Shown piece after piece: positions 3,219 to 17,823 of a DNA stretch of 32,777 nt. The first letter of the stretch is position 1. Each line of letters begins with the position of its first letter. The stretch is from NCBI GenBank assembly GCA_002784625.1, contig PFLP01000050.1, forward strand, positions 1 to 32,777. The letters are read 5' to 3'. A program made the position numbers and the translations under genes. The notes beneath the pieces were generated by a model, which had not been told where the DNA came from, made no database searches, and was given only the letters and a program-made list of their open reading frames with translations. The DNA is from Candidatus Pacebacteria bacterium CG_4_10_14_0_8_um_filter_42_14. GTDB lineage: Bacteria > Patescibacteriota > Microgenomatia > UBA1400 > PJMF01.

Positions 3219-4148
3219 CTATTGTTGTCTTAGTTTCGCCAGGGCCATTTTTAAAGCTCCGTTGACAGGAGGGTTTTCTGGGAAGACTAAATTTAGGCCA
3301 GAGTAGGTTCTAGTTAACTCTTCAACTAATGGGTCTTTTATGACCGGAAGTTGGACTACAGCTCCAGCAAATATGCAGTCGAAATTTTGGTCTTCAAGCT
3401 CAAGCTTTTCAATGAGAGTCTTTAACATCAAGAATAAATCTGCTACAGCTTTATGAATAATTTCGTGGGCGGCTTGATCATTTTGTGCGTAGGCAGCAGT
3501 ACAAATTCTTGCCAGACCACCAATCTCCACCTTAGATAAAAGAGGGTTGTAAACCTTATGTTTAAGTTGAGAGATGCTCGTAATCTTAAAATGTTGTAGA
3601 ACCATTTCTTCCAAAATTGATTTTGATCTTCTCCCGTCATGACTTTTTACTGCTTCACGAAGTACTTGTCTGCCGATGGCATATCCAGATCCCTGGTCGG
3701 TGAGTAAGAAGTCCATTCCTCCAGTTCTGGCTGTAATGCCTGCAGAATTTTTTCCATAACAATTAGAGCCTGTGCCAGAAATAATAATGATCGCGTTTGG
3801 TTGATCACTACCATTTTCAAGGGCAATGATGGCATCGTTTACCAAGGTAAAGTTTGTTACTGAAAACTGAGAGAAAACTTCTGAGAACATATTTTCGGCT
3901 AGTTGGCGTTCTTCTTCGCTATCCATTCCTGCCAGACCCATAACTAATTGATCGTAGGTAGTTTCGGGGGGAAGGGCTTGAGTAGCTTGTCTGATGACCT
4001 CGCGCAAATTAAAGCTAGCCGCACCAACAGAAGTGCTGGTCAGGTTTGTGGGGCCTGAAAGACCGGTGCCGACAACTGTACCGTTTTCGTCGGCACAAAG
4101 AACGTTAGTTTTTGTACCACCTCCATCGACTGCGATAACATATTTCAT
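3219..4148 (-). CDS. BadF/BadG/BcrA/BcrD ATPase family sugar kinase (N-acetylglucosamine kinase-like)
   Basis: 'MKYVIAVDGGGTKTNVLCADENGTVVGTGLSGPTN' phosphate-1 motif; 'LVNDAIIAL'; 'IIIISGTGSNCYG'. Confidence 0.85.
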   Translation of the reverse strand: MKYVIAVDGGGTKTNVLCADENGTVVGTGLSGPTNLTSTSVGAASFNLREVIRQATQALPPETTYDQLVMGLAGMDSEEERQLAENMFSEVFSQFSVTNFTLVNDAIIALENGSDQPNAIIIISGTGSNCYGKNSAGITARTGGMDFLLTDQGSGYAIGRQVLREAVKSHDGRRSKSILEEMVLQHFKITSISQLKHKVYNPLLSKVEIGGLARICTAAYAQNDQAAHEIIHKAVADLFLMLKTLIEKLELEDQNFDCIFAGAVVQLPVIKDPLVEELTRTYSGLNLVFPENPPVNGALKMALAKLRQQ

Positions 4149-4160
4149 AAGTGAGCTCCG

Positions 4161-6164
4161 TTATAGTTCATGGATAAGACTGGGATCAATAGGAGATTTT
4201 AGTTCCTGCTTTCTTTTTAGATAGGCAAGGACAGTTTCAATATAAACTGAGTGGCTCCAAACAAGAGGAGTTGCAGATAAAGACTGTCCAGTAGATGGAT
4301 GAAGTTGTTCAGCAAGAATACCCGAGTTATAAAGGTGAGAGGCAACCCAATCAAAGGTTTCGATAGCTCTCTCAAGCTGCATTAAATCCGTATCGGGATG
4401 GCGAATCACTCTTTGCGTTTCCCAAAGAGTGGTGATGAACCAAGGATTTGAAAGCTGGCCAGACTTAAAGTAGTTGTCATGCTCATAGCGAATGTAGCCA
4501 CCAACACTATCGGGATTGACTAGACGCTTATTAACTTGCTCGGCTGTTTTTTGGAGAAGTGGGTGTTTCATCTCGAGCATGCCGAAGTACCAGAGACCAA
4601 AAAGAGAGCTGGCATCGATTGTTTCGTCTTGAATGACTTTACCATTAACGATCCTTGCGAGGCGAATGAATGATTGTTGTTTCTCGCTATAAAGATGAGT
4701 TATGGCTGCTTTGCGAATTTCCTCTGCAGCTTTTTTATAGATTCTCATGTGATTGCGCTTATCAAGAAGTTCGGAAAACTTTGCTGCTGCCTCTAAGCCA
4801 CCGTAAACAGAGGCACATGTATAAGTGGAGACACCAATCATTTCTTCCCAAAGATCATAGGAGGGCATTGGTAGACCAGTTTCTTTATCACGGAAGTTAA
4901 CGAGGAAGGTGGCAATTTTTTCGATCAAAGGTTTATAAAGTAACTCGATAAACTCTAGATCTCTTGAGGTTTCGTAGTATTTCCAAAGGGCAAATAAGAC
5001 GCTCGCACTCTCATCTTCCTGAATAGGGAGCTGAAGAACTTTGTCATGTAGCCACTCGTCTTGAGCCGTGCTGGCATGCCAAGTCGAACCTAGACTTTCG
5101 TCAGAACGGAATCGATGATGCAAGTAGCCATCCGGGTGAAGTACATCCTTGCAGAAAAGAAAAAACGGCTTGGTAATTTCTTCGAATCCGGCCTGGCACA
5201 TGGTTGAGATGATGAAGGCAGCATCTCTTGGCCACATATAAGAGTAGTCATCCTTGCCGTACTCGATCATGGCACTATCAGCCGAAGCGATAACACTACC
5301 CTTGTTATCCATGTGACAACGCAAGATAAACAGAGAAGTCTCAAAAAGTTTTTTCTGTGCTTTGCTTAATCCAGAAAGGTCTGTTTGTTGCGTTTTTATC
5401 CAAGCGTGCCAGTAAGATTCAGTGGAGTGAATCATGGCAGCCGGAGTTTTTTGCATTACTAGTTCGTTGAGAGAGTAAGCTTCGTCAAGATTTTTTCCGG
5501 CGCAAATCCAGTAGTATGTCCTAGCCTTTTCATTTGGTTCGCAAGTTCCGCAAAATCTAACTACTGAATCTACAGAGCCATGTTCGACAGCGTTCTTTCC
5601 AAGTTTGCCATCCTCTGCATCTCGAAAAGTGCCCTCTTTGCCTTCATATTGGTAAGCACCAACAGAGTAGTCATCGATAGAGGTTCCTTGGGCAGTTCTG
5701 CCGTTAACAATGAAAACCCGTTTACCTTTATAGTGAACAATGGCATTGTGGGTGGGATCATAAAAAGCCGTATTGCGTTTTTTATTTTCCTCGATCATGA
5801 AGACTTGATGAAAGAAAAGCTTAACTTCTAAAGCTTCCTCACGATGATTGTAGATGTCAACCTGGCGGAGAAAAATATTCTCTTCGTTATAGACAATATC
5901 CTCCATTGAAACCGTTACTCCAAGCTTTTCGTTCTTGCAAACAAGATAGCCGACCATAGTTTCAGGTTTATAGCCAATTGAGATACTCCAGGTATCGTCG
6001 TCGAGCCATGAGAACGAGTCATTGACCATGACACCAATTCGATGTTTTTGCCCAGACACGTGATTCTCAAGACCAACATATGGATAGTAAAAATCCCTCA
6101 CGAAACCGTGGCGGTCAAGACAAACTAGGCAGGATCCATTTCCCAAGGTAAGTGCGCGGGCCAT
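4161..6164 (-). CDS. glycoside hydrolase family 15 protein (glucoamylase/glucodextranase-like)
   Basis: 667 aa; N-terminal 'LTLGNGSCLVCLDRHGFVRDFYYPYVG' and catalytic-domain 'DDYSYMWPRDAAFIISTMCQAGF' are typical of prokaryotic GH15. Confidence 0.88.
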   Translation of the reverse strand: MARALTLGNGSCLVCLDRHGFVRDFYYPYVGLENHVSGQKHRIGVMVNDSFSWLDDDTWSISIGYKPETMVGYLVCKNEKLGVTVSMEDIVYNEENIFLRQVDIYNHREEALEVKLFFHQVFMIEENKKRNTAFYDPTHNAIVHYKGKRVFIVNGRTAQGTSIDDYSVGAYQYEGKEGTFRDAEDGKLGKNAVEHGSVDSVVRFCGTCEPNEKARTYYWICAGKNLDEAYSLNELVMQKTPAAMIHSTESYWHAWIKTQQTDLSGLSKAQKKLFETSLFILRCHMDNKGSVIASADSAMIEYGKDDYSYMWPRDAAFIISTMCQAGFEEITKPFFLFCKDVLHPDGYLHHRFRSDESLGSTWHASTAQDEWLHDKVLQLPIQEDESASVLFALWKYYETSRDLEFIELLYKPLIEKIATFLVNFRDKETGLPMPSYDLWEEMIGVSTYTCASVYGGLEAAAKFSELLDKRNHMRIYKKAAEEIRKAAITHLYSEKQQSFIRLARIVNGKVIQDETIDASSLFGLWYFGMLEMKHPLLQKTAEQVNKRLVNPDSVGGYIRYEHDNYFKSGQLSNPWFITTLWETQRVIRHPDTDLMQLERAIETFDWVASHLYNSGILAEQLHPSTGQSLSATPLVWSHSVYIETVLAYLKRKQELKSPIDPSLIHEL

Positions 6165-12509: not shown

Positions 12510-14189
12510 ATGCTCAACACCGAGAAGCTACTTTACGTTTTACCTGACGTCTCTTATATTGCGGAATTGTTACCGACTAAAAAATCAAACACCTTCTCAG
12601 TTCAATCTTTTCACCAAATCAACGGCACGTTCATGGATGACAATGTGTTCATTCCCGAGCATATTGTTAAGCTTTGTGACAAACTCGATCCTGGAGAGTC
12701 ATACCACCTAATTCTTCCAGATTTTCTTTTTACAAATACAATTGTTTCAGTTAATGAGACCTCAGACGCAAAAATCAAGCAGTATTTAAAAACTGAGTTA
12801 CTTCCTTCCTTAGATCTCTCCATCGAGACTCATGAAATAGAAACTTTCATTTTGACAGAACTTAAAGGTGTTTCTAAGGTTCAGATCTCTGCAATCGAAA
12901 AATCGCTGTTGGCTCCAATTAGGGCAGGCTCAGATGCTGTTTCAGCAAAAATTTCTGCAGTTTCTCCCCTAAGCTGGGCGATCAAGTCAGTTATCTCACT
13001 TGAACCATCGATCAGTGTTCTCCAGATTGGCGACACTCTGCACAGCGCTCTCCATTACATTGGTGTTGATCAAACAATGCAAAGTACAGTTTCTGATGTT
13101 GAAACTATTGCCGAGACCATCAAAACCCTAAAAGGCGCCCAGCCAAGTATCCAAACTGTTTATCTTCTCACAAATGAATTAGTCCAGACGAAACTCAAAG
13201 AACTACTCAGTGACACTTTGCCACTTCAACAATTGAGCTCTTTCTCTGACGATCACGATAAGCTACCATCATATGTAAGAAGCATTATTGAGTCGAGCAT
13301 GCGTACGCTCTCGATCGAACAGTTTCCTGTTCCACGATTCAAGCTCGGAGTTGCTTCCCCTGAAGAAAGAGAACAGTACCAACAATACAAGGAAAAAAAT
13401 ACTAAAAAGGAACCTATGCCAGCTGCCGATCTGCCCAAACCAACAGCTCCTGCTTCTACTGAAAAAGAAGTAGCCAAAGAAATAGTCGTCGATGACGAAC
13501 CTAAAACAGAAGAACCTGATAAAACAATTGAGACAGAAACGAAGGTGTCTGATACCATGGACGACGTTAATATTTTGCAGTTCACGCACGGTGTTGAAAA
13601 AGCTAGCGTGGAAATAGTAAATACTACAAAAATCAGTGAGAAAGATATGCCGGAAAAAACAGAATCCCCAGTTATTAAAAATAAAACAGGCGTTGGTCCA
13701 ATGGTAAAAATGATATTTATCACCGTCACAGCATTCGCAGTGACCGTCGCCGTTGGAATTGGGATTGGTTTAGCATTTCTGAAAATCTCTGACAAGAACT
13801 CAACTGACGTAAGTCCTGTTGTGGAAGTCGAGCAACCAGGCATGGCTGAATCATCACCTACTCCAGAACCTTCTCCTGAGCCAACTGTAGAACTGGCTGT
13901 CGCTGACTTGAAGATTTTGGTCGTTAATGCGACAACAAAGGCAGGCTATGCTGGTCAAATTGGTGCAAAACTTGAGAGTGCTGATTTTGCTAAGGCAGCA
14001 ACTGGTAATGCTAAGGGTGAGTATGCTGATGCTGGTACTTACCTACTGGTTTCGGAAGAATATGCCGATAATGCAGAACTTCTTGCTGCCGTTAACAAAG
14101 CAACTGAACTCGAAGTGACTTATTTGAGTGGAAAAGATACGGAAGATCCAACCGGAAAATACGACATGGTTTTGGTATTAGCGAAGTAA
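12510..14189 (+). CDS. PilM/SHS2-like N-terminal domain, acidic linker, one TM helix and a C-terminal LytR_C-like domain
   Basis: N-term 'LILPDFLFTNTIVSV...DAKIKQYLKTELLPSLDLSIETHEIE...KVQISAIEKSLLAPI...ISAVSPLSWAIKSV' resembles PilM-type actin-like proteins. TM 'MIFITVTAFAVTVAVGIGIGLAFL'. C-term 'LKILVVNATTKAGYAGQIGAKLESADF' resembles LytR_C. Domain calls are by eye. Confidence 0.55.
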   Translation: MLNTEKLLYVLPDVSYIAELLPTKKSNTFSVQSFHQINGTFMDDNVFIPEHIVKLCDKLDPGESYHLILPDFLFTNTIVSVNETSDAKIKQYLKTELLPSLDLSIETHEIETFILTELKGVSKVQISAIEKSLLAPIRAGSDAVSAKISAVSPLSWAIKSVISLEPSISVLQIGDTLHSALHYIGVDQTMQSTVSDVETIAETIKTLKGAQPSIQTVYLLTNELVQTKLKELLSDTLPLQQLSSFSDDHDKLPSYVRSIIESSMRTLSIEQFPVPRFKLGVASPEEREQYQQYKEKNTKKEPMPAADLPKPTAPASTEKEVAKEIVVDDEPKTEEPDKTIETETKVSDTMDDVNILQFTHGVEKASVEIVNTTKISEKDMPEKTESPVIKNKTGVGPMVKMIFITVTAFAVTVAVGIGIGLAFLKISDKNSTDVSPVVEVEQPGMAESSPTPEPSPEPTVELAVADLKILVVNATTKAGYAGQIGAKLESADFAKAATGNAKGEYADAGTYLLVSEEYADNAELLAAVNKATELEVTYLSGKDTEDPTGKYDMVLVLAK

Positions 14190-14264: not shown

Positions 14265-15119
14265 ATGTCAACAGACTCAATTCACATTTCTCTCTCAGCT
14301 GAACCAATTTTTAATATTGGTTCGTTCCCAATCACTAACTCGATGTTTACCAGCATGATTGTCAGCTTGATTCTGATTGGTTTTGCACTAATTGTTAGAT
14401 CAAAACTTGCAAACACTTCTCGTCCATCTGGCTTACAAAATATTGCAGAATGGATTGTTGAATCTTTTTATGCTTTTGTTTACTCAGTAACGCTTGATAC
14501 AAAAAAAACTGTTCAGTTCTTGCCAATTATCGCAACATTCTTTCTGTTTATTCTTCTAAATAATTGGCTTGGTCTTCTTCCCGGAGTCGGTAGTATTACG
14601 ACCACTCCATTAGAATCTGGATATTCTCCAGAGACAATCGTCGCTGAGCAGCACGAAGAGGACGTTACTCTTTATGAATCTGAAGAACCTATGCTTGTTG
14701 AAGAGCCAGCCCATAAAGCTAGAGCCCCATTATTCCGCCCTGGCACAGCTGATCTAAATACGACTTTTGCTCTCGCCCTTATCTCGATTTTTCTCACTCA
14801 ATACTATGGTTTAAAAACTCAGAAGTTCTCTTACCTGAAAAAGTTTTTGAACTTTGAAAGTCCAATTATGTTTTTTGTTGGCATTCTCGAGATAATTTCC
14901 GAGTTTGCAAAAATCATTTCCTTCGCATTTCGTCTTTTTGGTAATATTTTTGCCGGAGAAGTGCTCTTAGTTGTTATCGCTGCTTTAATTCCAATCGGCA
15001 TTCCATTACCATTCTATGGTCTGGAAATATTTGTGGGTTTTATTCAGGCTTTGGTGTTTGCAATGTTAACACTAGTATTTATTAATATGGCTACAATAGG
15101 TCATGATAGTCATGAATAA
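14265..15119 (+). CDS. atpB: F-type ATP synthase subunit a
   Basis: 'LLNNWLGLLPGVGSI', 'TADLNTTFALAL', 'ISFAFRLFGNIFAGEVLL' (conserved Arg), C-terminal 'IQALVFAMLTLVFI'. Confidence 0.95.
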   Translation: MSTDSIHISLSAEPIFNIGSFPITNSMFTSMIVSLILIGFALIVRSKLANTSRPSGLQNIAEWIVESFYAFVYSVTLDTKKTVQFLPIIATFFLFILLNNWLGLLPGVGSITTTPLESGYSPETIVAEQHEEDVTLYESEEPMLVEEPAHKARAPLFRPGTADLNTTFALALISIFLTQYYGLKTQKFSYLKKFLNFESPIMFFVGILEIISEFAKIISFAFRLFGNIFAGEVLLVVIAALIPIGIPLPFYGLEIFVGFIQALVFAMLTLVFINMATIGHDSHE

Positions 15120-15845: not shown

Positions 15846-16289
15846 ATGGACTCTAAGCGTCAAATCACAATTGTTACCGCATCTGAGCTTGCCAAAGAGC
15901 AACGTCAAGATGTCCAAGCCCTTCTAAAAAAAAAGCTTGGTCTAGCGGAGATAATTTATGTAATCGATCCTCGTATAGTTGGTGGTGTCCAGCTAAACGT
16001 TGATGGTCAGGAACTTGACGCTAGTATTTTAGGAGAGCTTCAAAAACTTGACCCACAACTTCCTAAGGTTGTGATTACCTCCGCAGTAGCCCTCTCATCA
16101 GACGAGAGAAAATTACTGCATAACTTAATTTCAGACAAGATCGGGCCAGCCCAATATCAAGAAAATGTTGATAGAAGCTGCATTGGTGGTCTCAAAATTA
16201 TAGTTGGTGATAAAGAATACGATGGTACTATCCAGGGAAAGCTGGCAAATTTGCGCCGCACCCTTTTGAAGAAAACTGCAGGAGCATAG
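15846..16289 (+). CDS. atpH: F-type ATP synthase delta subunit, atypical: two tandem C-terminal-type domains
   Basis: Operon position; 'ENVDRSCIGGLKIIVGDKEYDGTIQGKLANLRRTL' matches the delta C-terminal signature, and the first half repeats it ('YVIDPRIVGGVQLNVDGQELDASILGELQKL'). Confidence 0.88.
   Translation: MDSKRQITIVTASELAKEQRQDVQALLKKKLGLAEIIYVIDPRIVGGVQLNVDGQELDASILGELQKLDPQLPKVVITSAVALSSDERKLLHNLISDKIGPAQYQENVDRSCIGGLKIIVGDKEYDGTIQGKLANLRRTLLKKTAGA
15864..16049 (+). repeat. protein-level tandem repeat, copy A of the delta C-terminal-like domain (aa 7-68)
   Basis: Hand alignment, ungapped over 62 aa with copy B, 18 identical positions. Confidence 0.8.
16068..16253 (+). repeat. protein-level tandem repeat, copy B of the delta C-terminal-like domain (aa 75-136)
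   Basis: Ungapped with copy A at an offset of 68 aa; shared xD...GG...V..xE.D..I.G.L..L core. Confidence 0.85.
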
Positions 16290-16298
16290 GACACACTC

Positions 16299-17823
16299 AT
16301 GAAAAACAAAAGCGATCAATTACAAACAGTTCTAAGTAAACTAATTGCCGAAGCGAATATTACCCCAACACCTGAATCGGTTGGCACGGTAATGTCCTTT
16401 GGTGATGGTGTTATTCGAGTTAAGGGCTTGGCAGAAGTTCAGGCTGGAGAGCTTGTTGATATTGGCAATGACGAGTTTGGACTTGCATTAAATCTCGAGA
16501 AAGACCAAGTCAACATTGTCGCTTTAAGTGAGGCAAAAAGTTTAACTACTGGTGATACTGTTAAAAGAACGGGGAAAATTCTTTCGATTGGAGTTTCAGA
16601 TAAAATTATTGGTCGAGTAATCGACGCACTCGGCAGACCAATTGATGGTTTACCTGCCTTAAAATCACCAAAAGATATGTTATTAGAACGAATCGCCCCA
16701 GGTGTTATGAGCAGACAATCCGTTACGGTACCTCTTCAGACTGGTATTAAAGCCATAGACGCCATGATCCCGATCGGTCGTGGTCAAAGAGAACTTATCA
16801 TTGGCGACAGAGCTACCGGAAAAACTGCAATTGCTCTCGGCACAATTCTTAACCAGAATGATCAAGATGTAATTTGTGTTTATGTCAGCATCGGTCAAAA
16901 GAGATCATCATTAGCCCAAATTTCCCAGACTTTACGTGAAGCAGGATCTCTTGACTATACAGTCATTGTCGCGGCTACTGCATCTGACACTGCTGCAGAA
17001 CAATTTCTTGCTCCATACGCAGGCCAAGCAGTCGCGGAATACTTCTTAGAAAAAGGTAAAGACGTATTAATTATTTTTGATGATCTTTCAAAACACGCCC
17101 AAGCTTATCGTGAAATTTCACTATTACTTCGTCGACCATCGGGCAGAGAAGCTTATCCTGGAGATGTCTTTTATCTTCACTCGCGCTTGCTTGAAAGAGC
17201 TTGCCGTCTTAATAAAGAACATGGTGGTGGTTCTATCACCGCCCTTCCAATTATTGAAACTCAGGCCAATGACGTAAGTGCCTATATTCCTACCAACGTT
17301 ATTTCTATTACTGATGGCCAAATTTATCTCGAATCTGACCTTTTTAATGCTGGTACAAAACCAGCTATCAACGTTGGTTTGTCTGTCTCAAGAGTCGGAT
17401 CTGCAGCCCAAATTAAGCTTATGAAACAAGTAGCCGGAACTATGAAATTAGACCTGGCTCAATTCAGAGAGCTACAAGCATTTGCTCAGTTTAGCTCCGA
17501 TCTAGATGATCGAACACGAAAACAACTGGAAAGAGGAGCTCGTGTAAACGCAGTTCTCAAACAAGGTTGGAACAACCCACTAAAAGTTGAGGAACAGTCT
17601 ATAGTTATTTATGCTGCTACACACGGCTTTTTAGATAATATTCAGGCTGACAAAATTACAAAATGGGAAGCTGAGTTCATTCTCAATATCAGAAGCTCAC
17701 AAAAAAAACTTCTTACTGAAATGAAGAAGGATGCCAAGCTAACTGACAGCACAGAAAAAGAATTAGAAAAAGTAATTACAGCATTTAACAAAATGCATCC
17801 TGAACTGGCAAAAGAAGATACGG

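Follow-up and report, generated by a model that had tools for sequence, protein, structure and literature searches.

What does an F-type ATP synthase do with a delta subunit that has lost its N-terminal domain (NTD) and carries its C-terminal domain (CTD) twice? In known enzymes, the delta NTD sits on the symmetry axis of F1 and takes up two alpha N-termini, so that a single stalk is formed (PMC12229609). The question is raised by the atpH gene in a 32,777-nucleotide stretch of DNA (the window) from a Candidatus Pacebacteria genome of 0.98 Mb, which is assembled in 75 contigs and ~90% complete. An initial annotation, made from the nucleotide sequence of the window, had described the atpH product as an internally duplicated delta subunit and had proposed a redesigned peripheral stalk.

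Results

The window delta subunit

The delta subunit encoded in the window is a tandem of two delta/OSCP C-terminal domains, hereafter C1 and C2, without an NTD. Its gene is part of a complete atp operon with the standard order (a, c, b, delta, alpha, gamma, beta, epsilon; Table 1), and atpH likewise lies between atpF and atpA in the intact operons of relatives. Directly 5′ of atpB is an open reading frame for 559 aa (12510-14189), whose sole Pfam match is a LytR_C domain at aa 466-535.

Table 1. Features of the atp operon in the window
Feature	Position	Strand	Basis
atpB, sole a gene, 284 aa	14265..15119	+	best solved match over full length is Chloroflexus a
atpE, c subunit, 71 aa	15132..15347	+	ORF, operon profile
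atpF, sole b gene, 161 aa	15357..15842	+	best solved match is Chloroflexus b
atpH, delta subunit, 147 aa, two tandem C-terminal-type domains, no NTD	15846..16289	+	ORF, translation, PF00213 matches in both halves
C1, first C-terminal-type domain, aa 1-71, invariant GG (46-47) and D58, last helix ~8 residues	15846..16058	+	Pfam, alignment of ten tandem deltas, AlphaFold2
Inter-domain junction, aa 67-73, length constant in ten tandem deltas from five genera	16044..16064	+	alignment; coil in AlphaFold2 model
C2, second C-terminal-type domain, aa 72-147, nearer to stand-alone CTD deltas, last helix ~17 residues	16059..16286	+	Pfam, profile scores, AlphaFold2
atpA, alpha subunit, 512 aa	16299..17837	+	Pfam
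Putative docking helix at the alpha N-terminus, aa 1-21; absent where relatives fuse a CTD to alpha	16299..16361	+	translation, comparison with relatives
atpG, gamma subunit, 287 aa	17824..18687	+	ORF, operon profile
atpD, beta subunit, 465 aa	18696..20093	+	Pfam
atpC, epsilon subunit, 135 aa	20097..20504	+	ORF, operon profile

The position and length assigned to atpH in the initial annotation were confirmed by the open reading frame and its translation, and the internal duplication was reproduced to the exact count. Specifically, residues 7-68 and 75-136 align without gaps at 18 identities over 62 positions, and none of 5000 shuffles reached either this identity or the local alignment score of 83 (the best shuffle scored 50). 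The further claim that both halves are of the delta C-terminal type also held when each was searched separately against the PF00213 (OSCP) profile: the first half (aa 6-69) matched profile positions 104-169 with an E-value of 1.2e-12, and the second matched positions 104-172 with an E-value of 3.7e-13. The NCBIfam delta models matched each half in their C-terminal region only, and the full-length protein scores above the Pfam and TIGR01145 cut-offs. Profile positions 1 to ~100 of PF00213, corresponding to the six-helix NTD, found no match in the window delta or in its ~90% complete genome, in agreement with the annotation that the NTD is absent and is supplied by no neighbouring gene. A search of the same ~90% complete genome for a second OSCP, a or b gene found none.

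In terms of fold, AlphaFold2 predicts two strand-helix-strand domains, each closed by a helix (8 residues in C1, 17 in C2), with a pLDDT of ~95 over most of C2. The two models (pTM 0.54 and 0.58) inform the folds of the domains and not the mutual orientation of C1 and C2. A helical bundle at aa 1-70 is absent from both, and this segment is thus not predicted to be a canonical helical NTD. Overall, the window protein resembles canonical bacterial delta and mitochondrial OSCP (PF00213, TIGR01145) in that both of its domains are the CTD of that family and its gene occupies the usual place between b and alpha; it differs in lacking the helical NTD and in the doubling of the CTD. The delta stop codon (16287-16289) precedes the alpha start at 16299, and the CTD is therefore not fused to alpha in the window. 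The translation of atpA also bears out the earlier statement that the alpha N-terminal segment is kept.

Delta forms in the family and class

We typed the delta subunit in all 44 ATP-synthase-bearing genomes of the window's family (f1). In this survey of atpH layout, the tandem form was found in 11 of the 44, distributed over six genera (G000-G003, G006, G013, G014, G020, G023, G032 and G033) and located within complete atp operons. The commonest form is a single stand-alone CTD of 70-80 aa (24/44); an NTD remnant is kept in seven genomes, and the remaining two have the CTD joined to the N-terminal end of alpha. Across the order, delta and alpha co-occur, both or neither being present in nearly every genome when fusions are counted. 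Family f11 (16 genomes), genus g5, G036, G042 and G077 gave no delta match and no alpha match above the cut-off, and these close relatives seem to have lost the F-type ATP synthase.

Natural fusions of a single CTD to alpha occur in three separate lineages of the class: G004/G026 (loci L116 and L137, respectively), G043/G054 (L164 and L152) and G291 (L165). The alpha N-terminal helix is missing in all three, whereas unfused relatives keep it. The last helix of these fused CTDs is shortened, yet each is the sole CTD of its operon.

Three further observations concern operon layout. Second, divergent F-type operons stand beside the main one at L145 (G018) and L146 (G014), with deltas of 151-158 aa and, in L145, a b subunit of 224 aa. 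In an Oscillospiraceae atp operon (L105), a full-length delta gene (3743-4327) is followed, just before alpha, by a gene for a 100-aa CTD-only delta (4581-4883). An apparent alpha-gamma fusion and split gamma in two relatives were rejected, as both were produced by runs of N.

Order of evolution

In a tree built on alpha and beta, with the alpha N-terminus excluded, the tandem deltas are nested in the CTD-only clade (99% SH-aLRT), which is itself placed among relatives with deltas of 112-135 aa. This nesting argues that erosion of the NTD preceded the tandem, and for the same reason a one-step replacement of the NTD by a second CTD was rejected. The redesigned stalk of the initial annotation survives in part: a changed stalk attachment is supported, but not the direct exchange of NTD for CTD, since relatives show NTD erosion first and the tandem later. 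One group of short deltas has an extra 45-60 residues that match the start and the end of a normal NTD, so that its middle must have been lost first. On sequence comparison, the path is from a full delta through a shortened NTD to the CTD alone and from there to the tandem or the fusion, with sizes passing from ~180 to ~130, ~115 and then 70-80 aa.

With respect to the duplication itself, a tree of single domains clusters the ten C1 domains together (92/92) and the ten C2 domains together (85/66), a pattern that fits one old event. G006 stands separately: both of its copies group with its single-CTD sisters, and they share an identical block of 78/78 nt. Its tandem lies at L118:5719-6105 in a single-contig genome of 100% completeness, and the first copy is without the last helix. 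As read from these groupings, the tandem deltas are the products of one old duplication and one independent, recent one (G006). The f1 members with deltas of 133-135 aa branch elsewhere in the tree, which may reflect replacement of their operons through transfer.

Conservation of C1 and C2

Alignment of the ten tandem deltas of the old clade, from five genera, shows that the GG pair, the D before the last helix and the length of the junction are invariant. Saturation of synonymous sites makes dN/dS unusable for most pairs; in the few pairs with unsaturated synonymous sites it is 0.16-0.21 for C1 and 0.07 for C2. Judged by these values, purifying selection is acting on both halves in at least one sequence pair. 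The two domains are nonetheless not equivalent. C1 evolves faster than C2, C2 scores above C1 against the stand-alone CTD profile in every tandem, and the last helix of C1 stops halfway, or in G006 is missing entirely.

Comparison with solved and engineered enzymes

Among solved structures, the F-type ATP synthase of Chloroflexus aurantiacus (PDB 9itj, 9itk and others) gives the best matches to window a, window b and the tandem-delta profile. The a subunit matches over its full length with an E-value of 5.9e-64 (next best structure, 2.8e-26), b with 8.9e-18 (next, 1e-7) and the delta profile with 2.1e-13, a likeness that may reflect kinship of the phyla alone. In the PDB, six Chloroflexus entries contain 18 alpha and 12 delta chains and eighteen contain 36 a and 72 b chains, which for every three alpha amounts to two copies each of delta and a and four of b; a 2025 structure paper in PNAS reportedly describes a pair of stalks joined via a delta dimer. 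The two Chloroflexus deltas are separate, short chains of 157 aa, each with one CTD preceded by ~80 residues, whereas the window has two CTDs in one chain.

Subunit a of the window has a long, acidic loop before its FR-x-GTADLN motif (14559-14741), which is variable in length and is also present in relatives and in Chloroflexus a. Not every lineage conforms, but its median length is ~77 aa in the CTD-only and tandem lineages versus 29 aa where a remnant of the NTD persists. We dropped this loop as a marker of two-a enzymes, as it occurs also in Brevibacillus and in one NTD-remnant relative and ranges from 23 to 110 aa.

In Bacillus PS3, removal of the NTD together with CTD-alpha fusion yields enzymes that carry as many as three stalks, with an H+/ATP ratio of 5.8 (PMC12229609; 2025), and Acidaminococcus fermentans has a natural NTD-less delta-alpha fusion (PMC12229609). 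PDB 9jc1, the deltaDeltaN-alpha fusion engineered in Bacillus PS3, has a CTD on each of three alpha subunits. This enzyme and the Acidaminococcus protein share with the window a delta that has no NTD and is expected to allow several stalks; in the fusions the CTD is at the alpha N-terminus, whereas the window delta is a separate protein with two CTDs. Natural counterparts of the Bacillus PS3-type design are instead the CTD-alpha fusions of the three lineages described above, which lack the alpha N-terminal helix.

Discussion

A tentative model for the tandem delta

The reading that we favor, with confidence somewhat short of even, is that, with the NTD gone, the tandem covalently links two stalk-docking domains and possibly serves two stalks. 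The window protein would then be the working delta of an ordinary F-type operon in a patescibacterial lineage without the delta NTD. CTD-type domains would directly contact the alpha N-terminal helices and so fix delta to F1, and this mode of attachment is probable. The alpha N-terminal helix would be the dock for the CTD, dispensable once the link is covalent, since the fusions lack it and unfused relatives keep one. Within the tandem, C2 would be the standard connector from the b dimer to one alpha N-terminus, and C1 a second stalk-facing domain tethered to C2. With the NTD gone, nothing would limit the enzyme to one stalk, and the likeliest use of the tandem would therefore be to take two b2 stalks, each paired with an a subunit of its own, in the manner of the Chloroflexus delta pair but with the two domains covalently joined. 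That the tandem-delta enzyme does carry two stalks is possible, although we hold it to be doubtful.

Several lines of comparison are consistent with this reading. The gain of up to three stalks in Bacillus PS3 upon NTD removal is one, and the closest solved relatives of the window a, b and delta are Chloroflexus chains, from entries with two delta, two a and four b. Sister lineages hold CTD-only deltas or helix-less CTD-alpha fusions, and both copies have been kept in five genera with a junction free of indels. Against two stalks, the faster evolution of C1, its lower scores and its half-length last helix, absent in G006, would suit a single stalk-bearing copy, and the ~7-residue coil junction may be too short to span two alpha sites. 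The short last helix of C1 would nonetheless be compatible with b binding, as the alpha-fused CTDs, each the only one in its operon, are shortened likewise.

Alternative roles for C1

The initial annotation had proposed that each CTD may bind one b chain or that one copy has taken over alpha binding; for a third possibility, a b dimer on each CTD, Chloroflexus supplies a natural example among solved structures. The strongest alternative, which we consider unlikely, keeps one stalk and makes C1 a substitute for the NTD: C2 would bind b2 and one alpha, and C1 would cap F1 at the usual site of the NTD and grip the other alpha N-terminal helices. C1 does hold the N-terminal place of the NTD in the chain, the three alpha subunits keep their N-terminal helix, and in both independent duplications it is, without exception, C1 that diverged and C2 that was conserved. 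The CTD-only relatives, however, manage without a cap, which argues that none is needed, and C1 retains GG and D-[ST], the core of a CTD that binds b, with no assignable new conserved surface.

The single stalk might instead be shared by giving each b chain its own CTD, an arrangement that we regard as quite improbable. Its model is the flagellar export ATPase complex FliH2-FliI (PDB 5b0o), a solved structure in which one FliI subunit carries two delta-like domains, the first bound to its N-terminal helix and the second to a neighbouring surface (PMC9114704). The likeness to the window lies in two delta-like CTDs held together on one ATPase subunit, with homology considered at the level of the domain, and the short, rigid junction would hold C1 and C2 side by side. 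In FliH, however, the two CTDs are fused to separate b-like stalk chains, so that the pair is carried on two chains and not on one. In known F-type enzymes, moreover, a single delta CTD serves both b chains. A fold search of the tandem delta gave no convincing FliH match over both domains (TM-score ~0.4, 7-10 Å rmsd), and a FliH-like pseudo-dimer was rejected as fold-search evidence on these values.

It is slightly more improbable still that C1 is a largely idle passenger, tolerated after NTD loss and kept since C2 depends on it for folding or dosage. The duplication did occur twice, and the G006 repeat, with its identical block and truncated C1, is recent and may be neutral. The old clade, by contrast, keeps C1 at a fixed length with invariant core residues in five genera, and dN is well below dS in its resolvable pairs. 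Finally, an assembly or gene-calling artefact, or a mis-split gene with the NTD nearby, might be suspected in so fragmented a genome, but is refuted by the same layout in ten other genomes, among them the single-contig, complete G006, and no OSCP N-terminal match lies nearby; we give it next to no credence.

Novelty and implications

The initial annotation had also put the architecture forward as undescribed. This stands for the tandem-CTD delta, of which we found no description in the open-licence papers searched, but not for the absence of the NTD as such: both an NTD-less delta and a CTD-alpha fusion are already known (Acidaminococcus fermentans and the engineered enzyme; PMC12229609). The same search of open-licence papers found no description of the CTD-only delta as the rule in a bacterial family, or of repeated CTD-alpha fusions in Patescibacteria.

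The delta NTD is regarded as the limit to one stator stalk, and this lineage shows its graded natural loss, with three natural end states: the CTD alone, the CTD in tandem and the CTD fused to alpha. A plain "delta" annotation hides these differences in architecture. Extending the preferred reading to the class, NTD loss might have given rise to natural F-type enzymes in which stalks and a subunits number two or three; the tandem would hard-wire two and the fusions, which evolved three times, would allow three, a broader proposal that we consider somewhat unlikely. The natural variants could in any case be used to probe how many stalks and a subunits an ATP synthase carries. They also bear on a possible trade-off in reduced, host-dependent bacteria, in which speed would be given up for the ability to make ATP when the proton-motive force is low: if two or three stalks are indeed present, the higher H+/ATP ratio would permit ATP synthesis at low proton-motive force in these low-energy symbionts.
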